Assembly: GCA_009691905.1 (NCBI GenBank)
Contig: SIAF01000002.1
Coordinates: 1-46,742, forward strand
DNA from: Planctomycetaceae bacterium
Lineage (GTDB): Bacteria; Planctomycetota; Planctomycetia; Planctomycetales; Planctomycetaceae
Reading direction: 5' to 3'
Length of the DNA: 46,742 nucleotides
In this document: positions 25,032 to 35,253 of the stretch, in pieces
How the letters are laid out: each line of letters begins with the position of its first letter
Numbering within the stretch: the first letter of the stretch is position 1
The notes under the pieces: generated by a model
What the model was told of the DNA's origin: nothing
What the model saw: only the letters and a program-made list of their open reading frames with translations
The model's database searches: none
Translations under genes and position numbers: made by a program

Positions 25032-26048
25032 TCAACCTTCTTCTTTCAAGTGTTGCAGGCACTCCTGGACGAGGTCGCGAACGCGGATGTTCTCGGCCTG
25101 GCCGTCGTAGTTCAGCAGCACCCGGTGCTGCAAAACTTCTTCGGAGTAGTGCCGCAGGTCTTCGAACGCCACGTGGGCACGCCCCTCGGCCAAAGCCCGC
25201 ACGCGGGCGGCGCGAATCAGGGCCTGGGCCGCGCGGGGGCTGGCGCCCCAGCGCACATAGCGCTTGACCGTTTCGGTCGCGAACTCAGAGGTCGGATGCG
25301 TCGACAACACGAGCCGCACGGCAAAATCTCGCAGAGGGTCGGCGACGACCACCTTGTCGAGGACGGCCCGCAGTTCGAGAATGCGCGGCCCGCTCAGGAT
25401 CTTCTGCAGCTCGACCGCTTTCTTGAGAATCGTGCGGCTGACGACCTCGTTCATCTCGGCCCGCGACAGAAACGGCACTTCGACCTTGAACATGAAGCGA
25501 TCGAGCTGGGCCTCAGGCAGCGGGTACGTCCCTTCCTGTTCGATCGGATTTTGCGTGGCCAGCACGAAGAAGGGCTGGACGAGGTGATAGCTCGTGCCCC
25601 CCGTCGTGACTGATCCTTCCTGCATCGTCTCCAGCAGCGCCGATTGCGTCTTGGGAGAGGCGCGGTTGATTTCATCGGCCAGCAAAAGCTGCGTAAAAAT
25701 CGGGCCGCGGCGAAACTCGAAGCGATAGCGGCCGGTTTCGTCGGTGGTCATGATGTTGGTGCCGACGATGTCGGCGGGCATCAAATCGGGGGTGAACTGG
25801 ATGCGGCGGAACTCAAGGTCGAGCACGCGAGAGAGGGCCTTGACCAGCTCGGTCTTGCCCAGACCGGGCACCCCCTCCAGCAGCACGTTGCCGCCGCTGA
25901 AAATCGCGGTCAGCGTCGCTTCGACGACGCGCGACTGACCGACGATCACCTTGCCCACCGCTTCGCGGGCATTGGCGAATTCGTGTTTGAACTGCTGGGC
26001 CTCGGCCTCGAGCATGGCGGGATCGATGGAAATCGGAATGGTGTTCAT
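25032..26048 (-). CDS. MoxR-family AAA+ ATPase
   Basis: 338 aa. Walker A GVPGLGKTE is at 59-67, Walker B LLLADEINRAS at 121-131 and sensor 1 region VLATQNPIEQEGTYPLPEAQ at about 160-180; LDRFMFK follows. The C-terminal lid has AALIRAAR-like helices (RAAQALIRAARVRALAEGR). MoxR ATPases act as chaperones that activate vWFA-containing partners, three of which are encoded around it. The ATG overlaps the stop of the 1021-aa vWFA gene. Confidence 0.96.
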   Translation of the reverse strand: MNTIPISIDPAMLEAEAQQFKHEFANAREAVGKVIVGQSRVVEATLTAIFSGGNVLLEGVPGLGKTELVKALSRVLDLEFRRIQFTPDLMPADIVGTNIMTTDETGRYRFEFRRGPIFTQLLLADEINRASPKTQSALLETMQEGSVTTGGTSYHLVQPFFVLATQNPIEQEGTYPLPEAQLDRFMFKVEVPFLSRAEMNEVVSRTILKKAVELQKILSGPRILELRAVLDKVVVADPLRDFAVRLVLSTHPTSEFATETVKRYVRWGASPRAAQALIRAARVRALAEGRAHVAFEDLRHYSEEVLQHRVLLNYDGQAENIRVRDLVQECLQHLKEEG

Positions 26049-29000
26049 GGATCGTCCTGCTGTCGTTTGCGTTTGAGTTTCAACAGTCGTTCAGTCGTCG
26101 TCGTCGGATCGGCCTGGGGCGCTTTGCCCTGCGTCGGTGCGCCCGCAGCGACACCAGGCGGGGTAGGCTTCGCAACGCGTCCGGGATCGGCGCGTTTGAT
26201 CGTCGGCAAGCGAGAAACCATCGGCGTCTCGGCCCGCCGCGCTTCGATCTGCGAATCGACCGCCTGCTTGCGCTCGAGCAGGGCGCCCATCGTCTGGCTC
26301 GAGGGACCGCTGCGACGGCCCAGGCCGAACCAGCCTCGGATCACGGACCAGTCGAGTTGCACGCGGCGGACCGCCACATCGAGCGGCACCAGAATGGCCA
26401 GCGCGATCAGAAACCAGTCGAAAATCGGACGCGAACTGCGCTTGGGCTGCCGGTTGGTATTGAAAATCTGTTCGGCAGTGGCGTCGGGTTCGAGTTCCTG
26501 CCCGCCGGTTCGTTCGGCAATCTCTTTGAGCACCAGCGGGTTCGATCGGAACCGCAGGTATTCGGGCGAATACGGGACGATAAAGCCGCCGAACGCCCGA
26601 TCTTCGGTGCGCTCGCCCGCCACCGGGGCGGCGACGATGTGATAGCGGCCCTTGCCCCACAGGGGAATCGACGCCTGATAGCGGCGCGGCCCGGTCTGCC
26701 TGAGAGGAATCGTTTCGGCCCGATCGTGGGGACCGGTCATCCGCGCCTGGATTTCGAGAAATTGTTCCTGCTCGTGAAAATCTTCGACGACGATGACCCC
26801 TTCGTTCCCCGAAGTGTAGGTCCACATCCGCAAGTGTCCTTCTTTGCGGACGCGGGCGATGCGCGTGATCAGTTGCTGCACGAATGCGTCGTATTTGTCC
26901 CATCCCATCCAGTCGGCGGCCCAGTTGGGCGACAGGTCAGAGGTGAATGCGGCCGATTGACCCAGCCCGTACCGCCAGATCGCCAGAATCGGGTCGATGT
27001 CGCCGTCTTCTTCTTCAGCCGATTCGTCACTTTGCTGCGAGGGAACCTGCAAGACGGTCATGGCCGGGTGCGGCTTGGCAGTCGTGATGACATACCCCTT
27101 GAGGGGGGGCATGCTGTCGATTCCCTTGAGCACGCTTTGATCGTCGAACCCGATCTCGGGGCTGATCGTCTTGTTCTGGATCATGCTCCGCTTCAGGGTT
27201 TTCGACTCTTTGATGAAAATCGCCGGCAACCTCTTGGGATCGTCGGGAAAGTAGTACCGTCCGCCGGTGGCTTCGGCGACCGTTCGCAACAGGCCGATTT
27301 CGGAGCCTCCATGAGGGAAAACCGCCACCGTCGAAATACTGATTTTGTTGTCGATGTAATCCTGCAAAACCGACGGCGCGGCCGGCTGCGGGTCGCCGTC
27401 GGAAATGATGATCATATGCTTCGTCGCCGCGTCGCTCTTTTTGAGTTCGCTCAGTCCCATTTTCATGGTGCGGTCGAAGGTGGGCATGTCTCCCGGCTCG
27501 GCCTTGTTGATTTTGGGAACGAGCTTCTCGTAGTCGCCGGCCGGAGTGAGTTTGAAGACCCATTCTTCTCCGGTGGGACCATAGATCAGGCAGCCGACTT
27601 CGTCCTGAGCGCCCAGCACCTTGATCGCCTGCTTGGTGATTCGCTTGGCCCAGGTGTTGCCTTCGGGAAATTCGCACGTGTGCAGAATAATCACCAGCGC
27701 CCCTTTGGGCAGCACCTTCTTCTGCGAAATATCCATCGTCACGGGGAGCGCTTCTTCGACCACGGTTCGATGGTAGCCGCCGGGACCGAAGCTGTTGGCC
27801 CCCCCCACCATCAAGAACCCGCTGCCGAAGTTGTAAACGCTGTCGCGCAGCGCCTGGAGCTGGACGGTGTCGAAGGCATCGGCCGGAGCGTTCAAAAACA
27901 CGATGCAGTCGTAGGGCAACAGCGACGACGAATCGCGGGGAAAATCGTACGCGGTTTGAATTTCGACGAAGTGCTTGGCTTCGCGCAGCGCACGAACCAT
28001 CGGCTGCGAGTCGCGCTCTTCCCCCTGCGGGTCGGTGACGACCAGCACTTTCCCTTCGCCTTCGAGAAACAGCGAGTTGATGACCTTGTTGTTCTGCTTG
28101 AGATTGTCTTTGCCTTCCGGCGGCAGAATCGTGGCCGTGTACTCGTAATACCCGGCATTCCGCAGATAGACGGGCATCGTGAACCGATTCTTGCCGGCCT
28201 GAAAATCGACCGTCTTCGACGAAATCAACTCGCCGTTCTCTTCCAGTTGCAGCGTCCCTTCACCGGCGACCAGCGACGAGAGCACGATGCCCGCCTCGTA
28301 GTTCTCGCCGACTTTGACGAACTGCGGCAGTTCGAGGCGTTCGAGCCAGACCTCGTTTTCGAAGCTGTACTGGATGGGTATGACATCGACAGAAGCCCCC
28401 TTGGCTTTCAGGTCGTCGAGAATCCGCCCGAGATTCCCCTCGGTCTGCATGCCGTCGCTGATCAGCACGATGCGCCCCTGCGTTTCCTCAGGCAACATGG
28501 CCGCCGCCAGCGACAACCCCTGTTCGAGATTCGTGGCTTCTTTGTCGATCAGCGAGTTGAGAATAATGTCAACGCTATTCTTATCGAGGGGCAAATTGGG
28601 GCGGGCGGGAAATTCGACCGCCGCGTTCTTACCGAAAACAACCAGCCCCGCCCGATCGGTGGAGCGCTTCTGCGTGGCGGTGTTGGCAACGAACCGCAGC
28701 GCCTGCTGCAGCATCCGCTGCTCGGGATCGTTGCCGTCGACCGAATCGGAAACATCGAGAGCGTAAATCACCGACAATTCGTCGCTGGTGCGCACCGCCC
28801 GCGGGTCGGCCAGCAGAATGACGAACAACCCCGCCAGCAACAGCCGAATTTCCAGGGCCACGAGCGAGCGTACGCGGCCCAGCCCCGCGTACCCGGCGAC
28901 GTGCATCCACCACAGCCAGGGGGTCGCCAACAGCAGCCCGAAGGCCGCCGGCCGCGCAAACAGCAGCCGGTGCGACAGGTCGAAAAACAGACACAGCCCG

Positions 29001-29110
29001 CCGAACAGCACCAGAAACAGCACCAGGGGCAAAGCGCCGATCGGCCGCACGCGTTGCCGCGGCGTCGGAAACAGGCTCGTGACGATGTGCCTGGCGATCT
29101 TGCCGATCAC
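26045..29110 (-). CDS. Large membrane protein with two vWFA-like domains and GATase-like domain
   Basis: 1021 aa. Start: the GTG at 29110 has AGGAGA 7 bases upstream, better placed than the GTG at 29116. Three hydrophobic helices lie within residues 25-100. The first vWFA domain has the MIDAS DVSDS at 119-123 and IVLISDGMQ. A beta-sandwich-like region and a GATase-like fold (YDCIVFLNAPAD ... GFLMVGGANSFGPGG) follow. A second vWFA-like domain (MIIISDGDPQPA) begins with VIILHTCEF, so its DxSxS motif is missing. A final helix (FDWFLIALAILVPLDVAV) is near residue 910, followed by a basic tail. The protein is probably an envelope component acted on by the neighbouring MoxR. Confidence 0.9.
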   Translation of the reverse strand: MIGKIARHIVTSLFPTPRQRVRPIGALPLVLFLVLFGGLCLFFDLSHRLLFARPAAFGLLLATPWLWWMHVAGYAGLGRVRSLVALEIRLLLAGLFVILLADPRAVRTSDELSVIYALDVSDSVDGNDPEQRMLQQALRFVANTATQKRSTDRAGLVVFGKNAAVEFPARPNLPLDKNSVDIILNSLIDKEATNLEQGLSLAAAMLPEETQGRIVLISDGMQTEGNLGRILDDLKAKGASVDVIPIQYSFENEVWLERLELPQFVKVGENYEAGIVLSSLVAGEGTLQLEENGELISSKTVDFQAGKNRFTMPVYLRNAGYYEYTATILPPEGKDNLKQNNKVINSLFLEGEGKVLVVTDPQGEERDSQPMVRALREAKHFVEIQTAYDFPRDSSSLLPYDCIVFLNAPADAFDTVQLQALRDSVYNFGSGFLMVGGANSFGPGGYHRTVVEEALPVTMDISQKKVLPKGALVIILHTCEFPEGNTWAKRITKQAIKVLGAQDEVGCLIYGPTGEEWVFKLTPAGDYEKLVPKINKAEPGDMPTFDRTMKMGLSELKKSDAATKHMIIISDGDPQPAAPSVLQDYIDNKISISTVAVFPHGGSEIGLLRTVAEATGGRYYFPDDPKRLPAIFIKESKTLKRSMIQNKTISPEIGFDDQSVLKGIDSMPPLKGYVITTAKPHPAMTVLQVPSQQSDESAEEEDGDIDPILAIWRYGLGQSAAFTSDLSPNWAADWMGWDKYDAFVQQLITRIARVRKEGHLRMWTYTSGNEGVIVVEDFHEQEQFLEIQARMTGPHDRAETIPLRQTGPRRYQASIPLWGKGRYHIVAAPVAGERTEDRAFGGFIVPYSPEYLRFRSNPLVLKEIAERTGGQELEPDATAEQIFNTNRQPKRSSRPIFDWFLIALAILVPLDVAVRRVQLDWSVIRGWFGLGRRSGPSSQTMGALLERKQAVDSQIEARRAETPMVSRLPTIKRADPGRVAKPTPPGVAAGAPTQGKAPQADPTTTTERLLKLKRKRQQDDP

Positions 29111-29131
29111 GTACACCTCTCCTGACCTGCA

Positions 29132-30997
29132 CTAAAGTTCGAGTTTGACGATCCGCCGGTTGCCGGTGTCGGCGACGAAAACCCGTTGTTGCGAATCAAC
29201 CGTCATCCCCCACGGCGTCGTGAACTGGCCGGCCAACGAGCCGATCGTGCCGTAGCGGCCCAACAGCTTCCCGGACGCGTCGAACTTCGACACCCGGCCT
29301 GCTCCGTTTTCGACCACGAACAACTCGCCGGCAGGAGTGCGGGCGATATCATAGGGGTAGTACAATGTCCCCTCGACCCCACCGAGGAGCTGTTGGAATT
29401 CGCCGGTGTCCGAAAAAACTTGAATCCGGTTGTTGAAGGCGTCGACGACGTAGATTCGGCCGTCATGCCAAACCATCCCGCTGGGTCGTAAAAACTGCCC
29501 CGGTTCGGTTCCCGGGCGGCCAAATTCGAGGATGAAGGCTCCCGCTTTGTCGAACTTCTGCACGCGATCGTTGTCGCCGTATTCGCCGACGTACAGATTC
29601 TCGTCGTCGTCTTCCGCAATCGCCACCGGGTAAATGAACTGCCCCGGCTCGTGACCGAGGCTGCCCCTCTTGTCGAGCACCAGCCCCTCGTCGCTGAAAA
29701 ACACGACGCGGTGGTAATGCGTGTCGGCCACCGCCAGCCGTCCATCCCGCAGCCGCACGATCTTTTCGGGCTTCCCTACCGAGTAATCGGGCATCCACCA
29801 CCGCTTGAGCAGCTTGCCCCGTTCGTCGAAAACCAGCACGCGGCCCGCGTTGTCGAGAACGTAAATCTTTCCGTCGGGGGTGGCATGTACGGCACGCGGC
29901 GTCGGGACGCTGGCCCCTTCGGCCGGCAGCGACCACGAGTCGACTTTGCGGACCGGCAGTTGCGGCGCGACGCTGCTTTCGGCACAACCGGCGAGCAGCA
30001 CGCAACACAACAGCAACGCCAGAATTTTGAGCACGACCCGATCTCCGATGTCAAACTCGGGAAACTGCGGCCGATGGAAAAACTGCCGCGTCGAGCCTGT
30101 CCGCTCGTTCATCAACTCCAACTCGGCCACCGAACCGAAGGGACGCGTCGACTGAACGACAAAAGGGCTTGCCGCCTCTGAGGTGACGGCGATCCGTTCA
30201 GGTCGGTACCAATGGCCGCCCACAGCGTTGCCGCTGAACCAGGTTTCTACGTCTCGATCGCCGATCCAGTTGGCCGGCCCCAGGCTCCAGGCCAGTTCGC
30301 CGTTCGGGGGATCGAAATAGAGTCGGTGGACGCTTCCGGAATACACGACGCGCCCTTCATTGAGACAGACGACATGTTCGGCTTCGCGAAGCACCGCGTC
30401 GGGGTTATGCGTCGAGAACACCAGCGAGACCGGCGTGCGGGCCTGCCGACGCTCACGAATCACGTCCCAATACTTGCGAATCCCGCCGGGATCGACGTGA
30501 ACCAGCGGTTCGTCGAGCACGAGGACGGCCGGCTCGGCCGCGAGAGCTCGCATAACCGACAACCGTGCCGACTCTCCCTGCGATAACTGATCGGGCCGAG
30601 CGTCGAATTTGTCTAGATCGAACCGCAACGCCAGCTCTTTCAGCCATCCCTCGGGATGCTCGCGTTGCGGCGCCACCGCTTGCAGATGCTCCTTGACCGT
30701 CAAATGGGGCCACAGCCCGTCATTCGGGGGTGCCCAGTACAAAGGCAACTGTCCTGCGGGGGGACGAAAGCAGCGGATCACCCGACCCGAGCCGGGCTGC
30801 TCGAATTCGACCAGCAGGTTGAGCAGCGACGATTTGCCCGCCCCCGACGGACCGAGAATCGCCGTCACGCCCGCCGGAATCTCGACCGTCACGTCGTCCA
30901 GCCGGGGCCGCAATCGTCCCGGCAGCGAAACCCGCTCGAGTTTCCACAGCGGCTCTCGTGCCTCGGCGGCCTCCCCTGCGTAGAGCGTGTCACTCAT
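29132..30997 (-). CDS. ABC transporter ATPase fused in frame to NHL-repeat lipoprotein
   Basis: 621 aa from the ATG at 30997, which overlaps the permease stop. Residues 1-320: ABC ATPase with Walker A GPSGAGKSS (49-57), signature LSQGE (138-142), Walker B VLVLDEP (158-164) and H-loop FSTHN, plus a small TOBE-like tail. The Q-loop glutamine is replaced (APPNDGLWPHLT). Without a stop the frame passes into VLKILALLLCCVLLAGC (322-338), a textbook lipoprotein signal, then about 280 residues of NHL repeats (GKIYVLDNAGRVLVFD, GEYGDNDRVQKFD, IYVVDAFNNRIQVF, VFVADTGNRRIVKLEL). Either a true cytosol-to-periplasm fusion, or two proteins made from one frame by internal initiation at the GTG at 30034. Confidence 0.85.
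   Translation of the reverse strand: MSDTLYAGEAAEAREPLWKLERVSLPGRLRPRLDDVTVEIPAGVTAILGPSGAGKSSLLNLLVEFEQPGSGRVIRCFRPPAGQLPLYWAPPNDGLWPHLTVKEHLQAVAPQREHPEGWLKELALRFDLDKFDARPDQLSQGESARLSVMRALAAEPAVLVLDEPLVHVDPGGIRKYWDVIRERRQARTPVSLVFSTHNPDAVLREAEHVVCLNEGRVVYSGSVHRLYFDPPNGELAWSLGPANWIGDRDVETWFSGNAVGGHWYRPERIAVTSEAASPFVVQSTRPFGSVAELELMNERTGSTRQFFHRPQFPEFDIGDRVVLKILALLLCCVLLAGCAESSVAPQLPVRKVDSWSLPAEGASVPTPRAVHATPDGKIYVLDNAGRVLVFDERGKLLKRWWMPDYSVGKPEKIVRLRDGRLAVADTHYHRVVFFSDEGLVLDKRGSLGHEPGQFIYPVAIAEDDDENLYVGEYGDNDRVQKFDKAGAFILEFGRPGTEPGQFLRPSGMVWHDGRIYVVDAFNNRIQVFSDTGEFQQLLGGVEGTLYYPYDIARTPAGELFVVENGAGRVSKFDASGKLLGRYGTIGSLAGQFTTPWGMTVDSQQRVFVADTGNRRIVKLEL
30032..30045 (-). promoter_or_regulatory. 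Possible internal ribosome site and GTG start for the NHL lipoprotein
   Basis: Read on the minus strand, CGGAG lies 8 bases before an in-frame GTG (30034-30032). Initiation there would give a 300-aa lipoprotein starting VLKILALLLCCVLLAGC (with Met first), with the lipidated Cys at residue 17. The spacing and the perfect lipobox position make separate translation plausible. It is not proven by sequence alone. Confidence 0.45.
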
Positions 30998-32511
30998 CGT
31001 CGTAGCCACCGGAATACGAGAGGTCGCAGCGCCGCCACACCCAGAAAAATAAGCACCGGCACCCCCACGGCCAGACAGGTCATGGCCGAGAGGATGGCGT
31101 TTTTTCCGAAGTGCATTTGATTGTACAGCAGCACCGGAACCGAAACTATCGTCACCGGACCGAGCAGATAGGCGACCGTCAGTTCCAGATAGCCCCAATA
31201 GGTCAACAGTGACAGCGACCAGAATTGCCCGCGCGTTCCCATCTGCCACGCCAACTCGCGGGCTTGGGCACGATTCCTGAAGTCAGACGACTCGCCCAGC
31301 AGCGAAGCCGTATGCAGCGCCGCATGGCGCCGCGACGCCTGCACTACCAATTGCACCAGCCAGGCCCGGGGAAGCAGAAACAGCACCAGCCCTAAGATCA
31401 GCGACACCGGCGTGCGGTACGCGAAATTGAGCAGCGGCCATTGGAACAGGCTGACCAACCCCAGGCCAAGCACCAGCGGCCCCAACAAACCGGGCCCCAA
31501 CAAACCGGGAATGGCCAGCCACGCGACGAACCGCCGGCCCCTGGTACTCCGATGGATCGCGCTCGCCAGCCGCAAAGCGATGACGGCCGCCACCAGCGAA
31601 AACAAGACCCCCGCCAGCGATTCCTTTAACAGTCGCTCCCATTGCAGGCGATTGGCCGCCAACGCCAGCAAACCCTGCAGCGCGTCGCGGCCGACGAGCA
31701 GCAAGGGCACGACCGATGTCATCAGGGCCGCGGCTACTAGATAAATACCGTCGCGCCACGCCACGACCCGACTGGTCGGCGTCGGCTCGCGCGCCGCGGC
31801 CGGTTCGCCCGATCGCTGCGACCAGCCCCAACACAGGGGCAGCACGACGGCCAATTCGCACGCCAGAGGCAACAGCGTCGCAAGCAGCGATTGGCCCAGC
31901 GCCAGCCCCCCGACCTGAGCGTCAAACAGCCAGACCGTCCAGGCCGGCCGGCCCAACAGCGACGGCAGTTCGAACTCCTGAAAGGCGATCAGATACATCA
32001 GGCTGCCGGCGGCCAGAATCGATCGCCAGGGACCATACCGCACATATCCGAGCCAAGCCCGAACGTGCGAGCCGAGATCGCGGGCCTGGCCCAGCGCCAA
32101 CCGCCGGCAGTGCCAGGCGACCGGCGGATACTCCGGCCGGGGCGCACACACCAACAGCAACACCCCGACAGGAACGCTGCGCGCCATCAGCATCAGGCAC
32201 AACAACACTTCGTCGAGCACCGCGTTGTGCGCGGCGAGCCAGCCGCCGACGGTCGACGGCCAATCGCCTGGTAAAACCTGCCACCATGCGGCGTTCGCCA
32301 GTTGCAAACTCACACCGTAACAGGCATAGGCATAGCCCGAAAGCAGCGTCGGAAACAGCAGGGGCAATAGCAGCAGGCACCACGCGACGCGGCGCGTGGG
32401 ATCGGTCAGCGTCGCCAGACGGCGCTCGATCCACACGGCCAGCGGGGCGGCGAGCACCGCGATCAGCAGACTTCGCGCCAACGACCAGCCGCAGGCGGAC
32501 CACAGGCTCAT
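30994..32511 (-). CDS. ABC transporter permease, ferric/thiamine type (two BPD domains)
   Basis: 505 aa from the ATG at 32511, which overlaps the binding-protein stop. About twelve helices fall into two halves (about 1-230 and 255-505), as in FbpB/AfuB/ThiP permeases in which one chain carries both transmembrane units. Each half has a cytoplasmic coupling region: LAAGSLMYLIAFQEFELPSL-type in the first and VTIVSVPVLLYNQ in the second. The neighbours are a matching binding protein and ATPase, so this is a complete uptake system. The substrate (iron(III), thiamine or other) cannot be set from sequence. Confidence 0.85.
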   Translation of the reverse strand: MSLWSACGWSLARSLLIAVLAAPLAVWIERRLATLTDPTRRVAWCLLLLPLLFPTLLSGYAYACYGVSLQLANAAWWQVLPGDWPSTVGGWLAAHNAVLDEVLLCLMLMARSVPVGVLLLVCAPRPEYPPVAWHCRRLALGQARDLGSHVRAWLGYVRYGPWRSILAAGSLMYLIAFQEFELPSLLGRPAWTVWLFDAQVGGLALGQSLLATLLPLACELAVVLPLCWGWSQRSGEPAAAREPTPTSRVVAWRDGIYLVAAALMTSVVPLLLVGRDALQGLLALAANRLQWERLLKESLAGVLFSLVAAVIALRLASAIHRSTRGRRFVAWLAIPGLLGPGLLGPLVLGLGLVSLFQWPLLNFAYRTPVSLILGLVLFLLPRAWLVQLVVQASRRHAALHTASLLGESSDFRNRAQARELAWQMGTRGQFWSLSLLTYWGYLELTVAYLLGPVTIVSVPVLLYNQMHFGKNAILSAMTCLAVGVPVLIFLGVAALRPLVFRWLRR

Positions 32512-33554
32512 TGCAGGTATTCCGACTTCAGCCACTCGATCACGGCCGTCCGTGAAGCCAAGAGGGGCCGCAAGTCGGCCCCCTGAGCGGCCCACAGGAC
32601 CAGAGGCCTGACGTCGGCCGGAAGATCGCCCTCGGCCACTGATCCCAGCGGAATCTGCCGCGACGCCGAGCGGGCCAGTTGCAATTCGGTTTGGGCCGAA
32701 AGTAAGTAATCGACAAGTTGCTGCGCCTGGGCACGCTTCTTCGTGCCGCGAATGATGGCGACCGTGTTGGGAATGCAGATCGTCTGCCCTTCCGCGCGGG
32801 CCACCGTCATTTCGACCGGCTTGCCGGCATCTTTGGCGACGAAATAGTCGTCGGTATCGGTGAAGGCGAAGTCGCAGGCCCCCTCGGCCACCAGGTTTTT
32901 CGTGGCCGCGTTGCCGGCGACTTCGCGCAGGCCGCGCCGGCGCGTGTCGGCGTGCCAGGCCTTGAGGCGCTCAGGTCCCCAGACGTGCCACAGCAGCGTG
33001 TAATGGGTGAGCGTCGTGCCGAACAGCGGCTTGGCAATCGCAGCCCGCGACAAATCAGGGGCAGATTCGAGCCGCTGGGCGATTTGCGCCTCGTCGGGCG
33101 GGATCCTGGCGGGATTGACGATGAACACGCGCAGCCGGGCGGCAAAGCCGACCCAGCAGCCATCAGGGTCCTTATACCGATCGGGGATTCGCGCGAATCC
33201 CGAGCCGCGATAAGGCTCGAGGACGCCGGTTGCTTTCAAATCGACCGTCCCCAGCAACTCGTTGTTCCAGAACACGTCGCAGCGCGGGTGCTGTTCCTCG
33301 GCTTTGAGCAGGTTCACCAGACCGAGCGATTTGGTGGCTTCGGTGTCGTACCGCACCGCGACGGCGATTCCCGTCTCGCGCTCGAAGTCATGCAAAATCG
33401 TGTCTGAGAATTCGGCGTCGTGGGCACAGTAGACAACCAGTGAATCGTCACCGGGCCGAAAGGCCCACGCGACCAGGGCCACCCCGACGAGCAATAATCC
33501 GAAGCCCGCGAACTGGGCCAGGACGGGGGCCGACGCCGAACCCCTATTTCTCAT
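32508..33554 (-). CDS. ABC transporter substrate-binding protein, ferric-type
   Basis: 348 aa from the ATG at 33554, overlapping the upstream gene by 11 bases; the ATG at 33569 is an alternative. An N-terminal helix (FAGFGLLLVGVALVAWAF) anchors or secretes the protein. The mature part begins SLVVYCAHDAEFSDTILHDF and contains GIAVAVRYDTEATKSLGLVN, CDVFWNNELLGTVDL, the hinge motif FGTTLTHYTLLWHVWGPE and DFAFTDTDDYFVAKDAGKPV, all characteristic of FutA/FbpA-type family 1 binding proteins. It likely feeds the permease encoded next. The ligand is unproven. Confidence 0.88.
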   Translation of the reverse strand: MRNRGSASAPVLAQFAGFGLLLVGVALVAWAFRPGDDSLVVYCAHDAEFSDTILHDFERETGIAVAVRYDTEATKSLGLVNLLKAEEQHPRCDVFWNNELLGTVDLKATGVLEPYRGSGFARIPDRYKDPDGCWVGFAARLRVFIVNPARIPPDEAQIAQRLESAPDLSRAAIAKPLFGTTLTHYTLLWHVWGPERLKAWHADTRRRGLREVAGNAATKNLVAEGACDFAFTDTDDYFVAKDAGKPVEMTVARAEGQTICIPNTVAIIRGTKKRAQAQQLVDYLLSAQTELQLARSASRQIPLGSVAEGDLPADVRPLVLWAAQGADLRPLLASRTAVIEWLKSEYLQ

Positions 33555-35253
33555 CGGCTTTGCCGTCATCGGCGGGATTCGCCGCGCCGGTGCCCTTCTG
33601 CTCGCCCGACTCAGAGCTATCAAAGTTATCGAAGTAACTCTTGATGCCGTCGTGATAGCCGGGGGGTACCTGCTCCTGCAAAATCGCTTCGCTGTATCCC
33701 TCTTTGACTTTGTTGACCAGCTCGCGATATTCCTTCTTGGCGTCGCCGCGGTCGCTCAAACCCTTGGTTTTCACCGACAACAGCACTTTGCCGGCCGTCA
33801 CGGCCGACTTCGATTGTTCGGTCTTGAAGCCGGTTTCGACCGAATCGTCTTCGGGAGCCTTCCCGCCGCGACCCATGCCACGATTGCCCATCCCCTCTCC
33901 GTCGCCCTCTTCGTCACCATCCTCCCCTTCGCCCTCGCCTTCTTCGCCTGAGAGACCAAGCTGGGCCATCAGTTCAGCGTACAGTTCGGCGTAGTCTTCC
34001 ATCGATTGGGCCCCTTCGGCCTGTTCGCCGTCGAGCTTCTCTTTGTCGTTAAGCTGCTTGGCCTGCTGGATGACCTTGAGCGCCTCTTCGAGCGCTTTCA
34101 TGTCCTTGGCCGACTGCGCCAGCTCTTTGAGCTCGAGCTTGGTGAGGTCCAGCGACTTCTCGGCCGATTCGAGCGCCTCGTCGCTGTCCATGCCTTCCAT
34201 CTTGGCCATTTCCATCTGCTTCATGGCCCGCTGCAACGCGGCCGCCAGCGGCTTGGAGTTGACCTTTTCAGAGGCGAAGTTCGACAGATCTTTCATCCGT
34301 TTTTTGACCTGCTTTTCAAGCTCGTCGCGCTTGATCGGGTCTTCGGTTTTGGCGAGCCGCTTCAGGTCGTCTTTGAGTTCTTCCAGTTCCTGCTGCAGGC
34401 TTTTGGTCGAGCCTTCCTGCAACTCGCGGGTCCACTTTTCGAGCTTGTCCTTGTCGAGCGAGCCGAACTGCTGCCCCTGCGGATTCTGCGACAGCAGGTC
34501 TTTGAGTTTCTCGGCGCTGAGCTTGCGCCATTTATCCTGGATTCCCTTCTGCTGACCGAGCAGTTCTTTGAGATTGCCCGACTTCTCGCGGGGAGACATC
34601 TTCTTCAGGGCCGACTTCAGGTTTTCGAGGGCCTTCTCGGTCTCTTCCGAGAGCGGGCCTTCGGTTTCTTCTTTTTTCAATTGCGCTATTTTCTCTTCGG
34701 TCGCTTTCTTCGCTTGCTCGAGCTGCTTCTGCCGCTGGCTCACCTGGCCAGCCGCTTCGACTTTGCCGAATGGATCAAACGTCGGCAACCACAAAACGCC
34801 GGCAGCGATCAAGAGACCCGCCAGCAACGCCTGCCCGAATTCGCGGCCCCCCTCGAAGGGGACGACGGCGGCCGGCTTGACGCGCTTGGCCCGCTCTTCG
34901 GCGGCACGCGTCACGAGCGGCTGAAATTCACCGGCCGACTTTTCGATCAGCGCCACAGTCAGAAACAGGTCTTTCGTCCCGCTGTGTTTGTCGACGACCC
35001 GCGCCGCTTCGAGCACGCTCGGCCGATGATGCCAGGCCAGCGCCACCAGGGCCGCAACCGCCGGAACCACCAGCAGCGTCGGCAACGTCACCCATTCGGT
35101 GGCGATCCCGCACAGCCGGCAAACCAGCAGCGCGACCGCATACAACCCGCAACTGACGAGAAACGTCCAGTACACCCGTCCTGCGATGGCCGCCACGTGC
35201 AGCCGCCGGGCGACTTGCTTCAGCAACGCCACTGACCGCGGTGATTCAAACAT
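33544..35253 (-). CDS. Coiled-coil membrane protein of unknown function
   Basis: 569 aa, first gene of the 17244-35253 set. Two helices near the N-terminus (about 29-50, with LVSCGLYAVALLVCRLC, and 56-75) are followed by a third (about 140-157). From about residue 165 to 430 the chain is a highly charged, Lys/Glu/Leu-rich predicted coiled coil (KQLEQAKKATEEKIAQLKKE; LQQELEELKDDLKRLAK). A Gly/Glu/Asp-rich stretch (EGEGEGEDGDEEGDGEGMGN) precedes a short C-terminal domain (KKEYRELVNKVKEGYSEAIL) and an acidic end. Not assigned to a named family. Its position suggests an envelope scaffold role for the vWFA/MoxR machinery; this is inference. Confidence 0.85.
   Translation of the reverse strand: MFESPRSVALLKQVARRLHVAAIAGRVYWTFLVSCGLYAVALLVCRLCGIATEWVTLPTLLVVPAVAALVALAWHHRPSVLEAARVVDKHSGTKDLFLTVALIEKSAGEFQPLVTRAAEERAKRVKPAAVVPFEGGREFGQALLAGLLIAAGVLWLPTFDPFGKVEAAGQVSQRQKQLEQAKKATEEKIAQLKKEETEGPLSEETEKALENLKSALKKMSPREKSGNLKELLGQQKGIQDKWRKLSAEKLKDLLSQNPQGQQFGSLDKDKLEKWTRELQEGSTKSLQQELEELKDDLKRLAKTEDPIKRDELEKQVKKRMKDLSNFASEKVNSKPLAAALQRAMKQMEMAKMEGMDSDEALESAEKSLDLTKLELKELAQSAKDMKALEEALKVIQQAKQLNDKEKLDGEQAEGAQSMEDYAELYAELMAQLGLSGEEGEGEGEDGDEEGDGEGMGNRGMGRGGKAPEDDSVETGFKTEQSKSAVTAGKVLLSVKTKGLSDRGDAKKEYRELVNKVKEGYSEAILQEQVPPGYHDGIKSYFDNFDSSESGEQKGTGAANPADDGKADEK

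Follow-up and report, generated by a model that had tools for sequence, protein, structure and literature searches.

The window analysed here is a 46,742-nt stretch of contig SIAF01000002.1 from a Planctomycetaceae bacterium (GCA_009691905.1). Its minus strand carries one open reading frame in which an ABC ATPase runs straight into a predicted lipoprotein signal and an NHL propeller (Table 1). The frame opens with the ATG at 30997, continues without an internal stop to the codon that ends at 29135, and closes with the stop codon at 29134 to 29132. The translated chain is scored by both ABC_tran (E 3e-20) and NHL (E 3e-22). The junction reads GDRVVLK-ILALLLCCVLLAG-C338, and residues 322 to 338 are VLKILALLLCCVLLAGC. 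The initial annotation had described an uninterrupted frame with a complete ABC ATPase (Walker A, LSQGE and Walker B), followed by a lipoprotein signal and NHL repeats. The stop-free translation through codon 621, the location of all three ATPase motifs and the two Pfam scores confirm the frame and both domains. The final ATPase strand and the signal start were also said to share residues, and the last TOBE strand does double as the n-region of the signal. The key residues of the three ATPase motifs are invariant across the alignment of relatives.

Table 1. Features of the fused gene and its neighbours, in window positions.
Feature	Positions	Strand	Evidence
Single ORF: ABC ATPase, TOBE, predicted lipoprotein signal, NHL propeller	29132..30997	-	621 codons plus stop; stop-free translation; frame kept whole in 72 genomes of the order, counting the window, and in 4 from other families
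ABC ATPase core, residues 1-240	30278..30997	-	PF00005 in 24/24 members; invariant columns
Walker A GPSGAGKS, residues 49-56	30853-30830	-	Sequence
LSQGE, residues 138-142	30586-30572	-	Sequence
Walker B LVLDEP, residues 159-164	30523-30506	-	Sequence
TOBE (OB-fold) domain, residues 241-327; last strand GDRVVLKIL	30017..30277	-	Profile aligned to CysA 1z47 and FbpC 3fvq C termini; TOBE_2 in relatives
Predicted internal lipoprotein signal peptide, residues 318-337; n-region R320/K324; h-region and lipobox ILALLLCCVLLAG	29987..30046	-	Signature conserved in the 72 fused genes (see text)
Cys338, predicted Lgt lipidation and LspA cleavage point (G337/C338)	29984..29986	-	Invariant in alignment A1
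NHL beta-propeller, residues 351-621	29135..29947	-	NHL E 3e-22; confident AF2 propeller; Foldseek to Thin 6d69 NHL domain, E 5e-24
In-frame GTG with CGGAG 8 nt upstream	30032..30034	-	Most likely fortuitous as a start; position not conserved and no enrichment of candidate starts
ABC permease	30994..32595	-	4-nt overlap (ATGA) with the start of the ATPase gene; a homologue lies upstream at 60/72 fused loci
Substrate-binding protein, ferric-binding FbpA/HitA-like	32508..33623	-	SBP_bac_8; ferric iron-binding protein structures, best E 1e-15
VWA/GATase-like membrane protein, next after propeller	26045..29116	-	VWA_2; downstream of NHL in other loci (see text)
MoxR-type AAA+ ATPase	25032..26048	-	AAA_3 E 4e-62; syntenic in other families

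The propeller is a six-bladed NHL fold. AlphaFold, run with the window sequence and one partial relative, modeled it confidently; the ATPase half had a pLDDT of about 20 to 40 and was unusable. Besides Thin, Foldseek matched the propeller to PknD (1rwi). The importer is predicted to be of the ferric type, because its predicted binding protein resembles ferric iron-binding proteins. The permease gave no Pfam or NCBIfam match at the threshold used. On the other side of the fused gene, the VWA gene starts about 15 nt past the stop. A VWA gene follows the propeller in 149 of the 157 loci with room for it, at a median gap of 33 nt, and this includes genomes with no ABC genes in view. Thus, the VWA/MoxR module is the most faithful neighbor of the propeller. 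This suggests that the module is its main partner, and a ferric-type importer may be connected with the module through the lipoprotein.

The fusion is widespread. Matches at E <= 1e-60 occurred in 127 of the 170 genomes of the same order. We fetched about 110 loci and queried them separately with the ATPase and the NHL parts, asking whether both fall in one open frame. A fused, stop-free frame was present in 72 loci, the window counted (71 relatives of the same order), several of them in single-contig genomes. The architecture also occurs in four genomes that belong to other families of the phylum (L146, L147, L150 and L151; L147 is a single contig), and the fusion is kept in at least five families. 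Other relatives have split genes, so both states that the initial annotation had set against each other, a fusion and a stop in between, do occur. A separate related-locus search for full-length fused relatives returned only one partial relative. Two loci carry interrupted ATPases. In L071 (G073), the fused gene has one in-frame TAA directly after the ABC signature motif; the locus looked split, but its stop sits inside the ATPase, and we counted it as neither fused nor split. At L149/L111 (G014, single contig), the match to ATPase plus propeller carries stops (TAG and TAA), the ATPase frame ends early and the adjacent propeller is intact; this ATPase has possibly decayed or been rearranged.

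The ATPase is of the FbpC/CysA type, with a TOBE domain. Aligned as a profile, 24 relatives match CysA (1z47) and FbpC (3fvq) through TOBE, up to the strand G-x-R-V-x-L. TOBE_2 was scored in 9 of the 24 relatives and gave no score on the window sequence alone. Like the FbpC/CysA/PotA-type importer ATPases, the protein has the ABC core motifs and aligns as a profile over core and TOBE, and an FbpA-like binding protein and a permease adjoin it. Known members end at the last TOBE strand, whereas here the chain runs directly into the predicted lipoprotein signal and the propeller. Most of the linked split relatives likewise close their ATPase frame at this strand or close to it (for example, GQRVRIKVLS followed by the stop), and a separate start codon opens an ordinary lipoprotein gene for the propeller. 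In a few split loci, the TOBE end is missing or the lipoprotein is paired with a different ATPase. Therefore, the predicted signal peptide starts at the usual end point of an ABC ATPase.

Lipoprotein signals are regarded as belonging to the N terminus. Here the signal is internal rather than at the N terminus of the primary product, and no conserved start precedes it. All 72 fused genes have the Cys, and the residue at -1 is Gly in 70 and Ser in 2. The Cys is preceded by 12 to 18 uncharged residues, and the residue bounding this stretch is Arg, Lys or His in every case (72/72). These counts bear out the lipoprotein signal that had been read from the window alone, where no other part of the protein is as hydrophobic as this segment. 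Only 22 of the 72 satisfy the strict lipobox [LVI][ASTVI][GAS]C, since positions -3 and -2 vary, in contrast to the almost invariant -1 and +1. We conclude that the segment is, by prediction, a type II signal peptide and not an ordinary membrane anchor. The source genome encodes LspA and two Lgt proteins, and the two Lgt paralogues lie at G000:C363:1520-2305 and G000:C115:12902-13549.

We propose that this gene encodes a bacterial polyprotein, which signal peptidase II would cut into an ATPase and a lipid-anchored propeller. We consider this reading likely, with cleavage and lipidation both deduced from the sequences. Ribosomes would produce one 621-residue chain, and its FbpC-like ATPase would fold in the cytosol. 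The segment after the last TOBE strand would act as a type II signal, as its conserved signature suggests, and would start Sec export of the C-terminal NHL propeller. Lgt would lipidate Cys338, and LspA would cut between G337 and C338. The predicted products are an ATPase that keeps a short hydrophobic tail and, outside the inner membrane, a propeller anchored by lipid. The tail may be trimmed, or it may hold the ATPase at the membrane beside the permease. The probable benefit would be that two components of a ferric-type importer module linked to VWA/MoxR are supplied 1:1 and synthesized close to the membrane.

Alternatively, the product may be an uncleaved bitopic protein, in which the hydrophobic segment, perhaps lipidated but uncut, permanently joins a cytosolic ATPase to an outside propeller that senses and regulates it in a PknD-like manner. 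The initial annotation had reasoned that one chain would tether the ATPase to a periplasmic propeller. The single chain is supported, but a permanent tether is less likely than cleavage, and we consider it improbable, though worth weighing. It would agree with the conservation of the fusion across families and with the Foldseek match, which is to the extracytoplasmic NHL domain of PknD from Mycobacterium tuberculosis. However, the short uncharged segment with its almost fixed [G/S]C end looks like a signal peptide and not like an anchor. In addition, the regulatory domain of MalK-type importers faces away from the membrane.

The history of the fusion also bears on the tether. In a tree of the ATPase and propeller with the junction left out, eight changes between the fused and split states are needed, and at least five to six are forced by well-supported branches. 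The most parsimonious history has a fused ancestor, six fissions and no gains (6 steps, versus 9 from a split root), with the root placed on out-of-class fused genes, two long-branch rows left out and deep placement uncertain in the FastTree tree. These fissions leave a soluble ATPase and an ordinary lipoprotein. Six lineages would thus have broken the link and lost any tether, yet kept both products. Because of this pattern and the conserved short lipobox, we favor predicted LspA cleavage over a permanent tether. The fusion has nevertheless been held over a long divergence, and the covalent link itself might matter.

A second upstream partner was found in another planctomycete class. At L160 (L160:2299-4962, in the single-contig genome G513), one frame encodes a permease with 11 to 12 hydrophobic segments, which is followed by GLRRAAPSWALLIVCAATTLGGC and the NHL part. 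In about 43 of the 298 genomes of that class, by our own count from the search listing, permease and propeller share a single uninterrupted frame of roughly 780 or more codons (loci seen include L165-L170 and L181-L210). Among the permease-fusion loci that we inspected, automatic checking confirmed 27; of these, -1 is Gly in 25, and 7 have no start codon 14 to 28 codons before the Cys. A tether would tie the propeller to a different subunit in these proteins. The same internal lipobox behind two different upstream subunits fits lipoprotein release better than a purpose-built ATPase tether, and an ATPase-specific tether appears unlikely as the common purpose. With somewhat less confidence than for the gene itself, we suggest that Planctomycetota probably use internal lipoprotein signals for polyproteins, with the NHL lipoprotein extending an importer ATPase in some lineages and a permease in others, and released by LspA. 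At one further locus (L174, G237), an upstream sequence recognized by eye as MiaA-like (tRNA dimethylallyltransferase) continues in the same open frame into the NHL lipoprotein; this is a single case and possibly chance.

It is very unlikely that two proteins arise from the one frame, with the ATPase (or the fusion) starting at 30997 and the lipoprotein at an internal GTG at 30034. The GTG and the CGGAG 8 nt upstream, proposed as a start in the initial annotation, are present in the window. However, the position is not conserved, and the codon does not hold up as a functional start. Some ATG, GTG or TTG lies 14 to 28 codons before the Cys in 53 of the 72 fused genes, but 19 have none; such codons are absent at 14 to 40 codons in 15 genes and at 14 to 50 codons in 8, counts that cover ATG, GTG and TTG, so that some genomes could use CTG or ATT or a start more than 40 codons upstream. 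These codons are not enriched at the junction (0.074 per codon versus 0.064 elsewhere), and Met is 1.3% in both. A start with an SD-like match occurs in only 7 of the 72 fused genes. Such matches are scarce in the split controls too (6 of 30), and we did not rely on them. The split loci all have a usable start within 60 codons, except L071. Synonymous differences between close pairs are 0.23 to 0.27 per codon at the junction and 0.23 elsewhere. The junction is thus unconstrained at synonymous sites and seemingly holds no embedded RNA signal. With two separately started proteins, moreover, the open frame would be kept for no reason. Because there is no conserved start, no enrichment of start codons and no synonymous constraint, one single chain is almost certainly made, as judged from these comparisons.

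A sequencing or assembly error, or a recent neutral stop loss, is hardly credible: although the source is a MAG of 490 contigs (93.7% complete, with the window on one contig), 72 genomes keep the fusion, several in single-contig assemblies, and the relatives, which do not have separate genes throughout, refute an error hiding a stop or frameshift near 30034.

If the polyprotein reading is right, an LspA-processed bacterial polyprotein is conserved across a phylum, and a cytosolic ATPase keeps the cleaved signal peptide as a membrane tail. Sec, Lgt and LspA would then routinely handle chains that have a folded cytosolic enzyme or a polytopic permease as their N-terminal half. Prediction and annotation pipelines that assume N-terminal signals would miss such a signal and annotate the gene as simply an ABC ATPase, or as an odd fusion. 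The natural fused and split relatives make the idea of a signal peptidase II polyprotein directly testable. For ABC biology, a periplasmic propeller and a VWA/MoxR module would be linked to a ferric-type importer. In a literature search, neither an internal signal of the LspA type nor this ABC-NHL fusion came up, which is weak evidence of absence because subscription journals were mostly outside its coverage.

A known precedent is FbcH, the cytochrome b/c1 polyprotein of Bradyrhizobium: from one bacterial gene, two mature proteins arise by signal peptidase I cleavage at an internal signal peptide. Our gene would likewise give two proteins around an internal signal, with cleavage deduced from sequence comparison. 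FbcH differs in its signal peptidase I-type site and in its two respiratory subunits, whereas here the signal is of the LspA type and a soluble cytosolic ATPase lies upstream. PknD of M. tuberculosis shares the order of a cytosolic ATP-using domain followed by an extracytoplasmic NHL propeller. Its anchor is a transmembrane segment without a lipobox; here, in contrast, there is a short h-region and a conserved Cys predicted to be lipidated.

In the MoxR-vWA-beta-propeller ternary systems, MoxR, VWA and beta-propeller proteins are encoded together (PMC7159879). The same three kinds of protein occur together at our locus, and bpMoxR gave a weak match to its MoxR protein. However, that protein is far closer to AAA_3 (208 bits, versus 36 bits for bpMoxR), and the setting is an ABC importer operon with a propeller predicted to be an NHL lipoprotein; we therefore rejected membership in these conflict systems. 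In OpuA, an extracytoplasmic domain is covalently joined to an ABC subunit (PMC2861598, PMC11065425). OpuA and GlnPQ resemble the planctomycete fusions in this respect. There, a substrate-binding protein sits on the permease and stays joined, whereas here an NHL lipoprotein sits on the ATPase (or the permease) behind a predicted lipobox.
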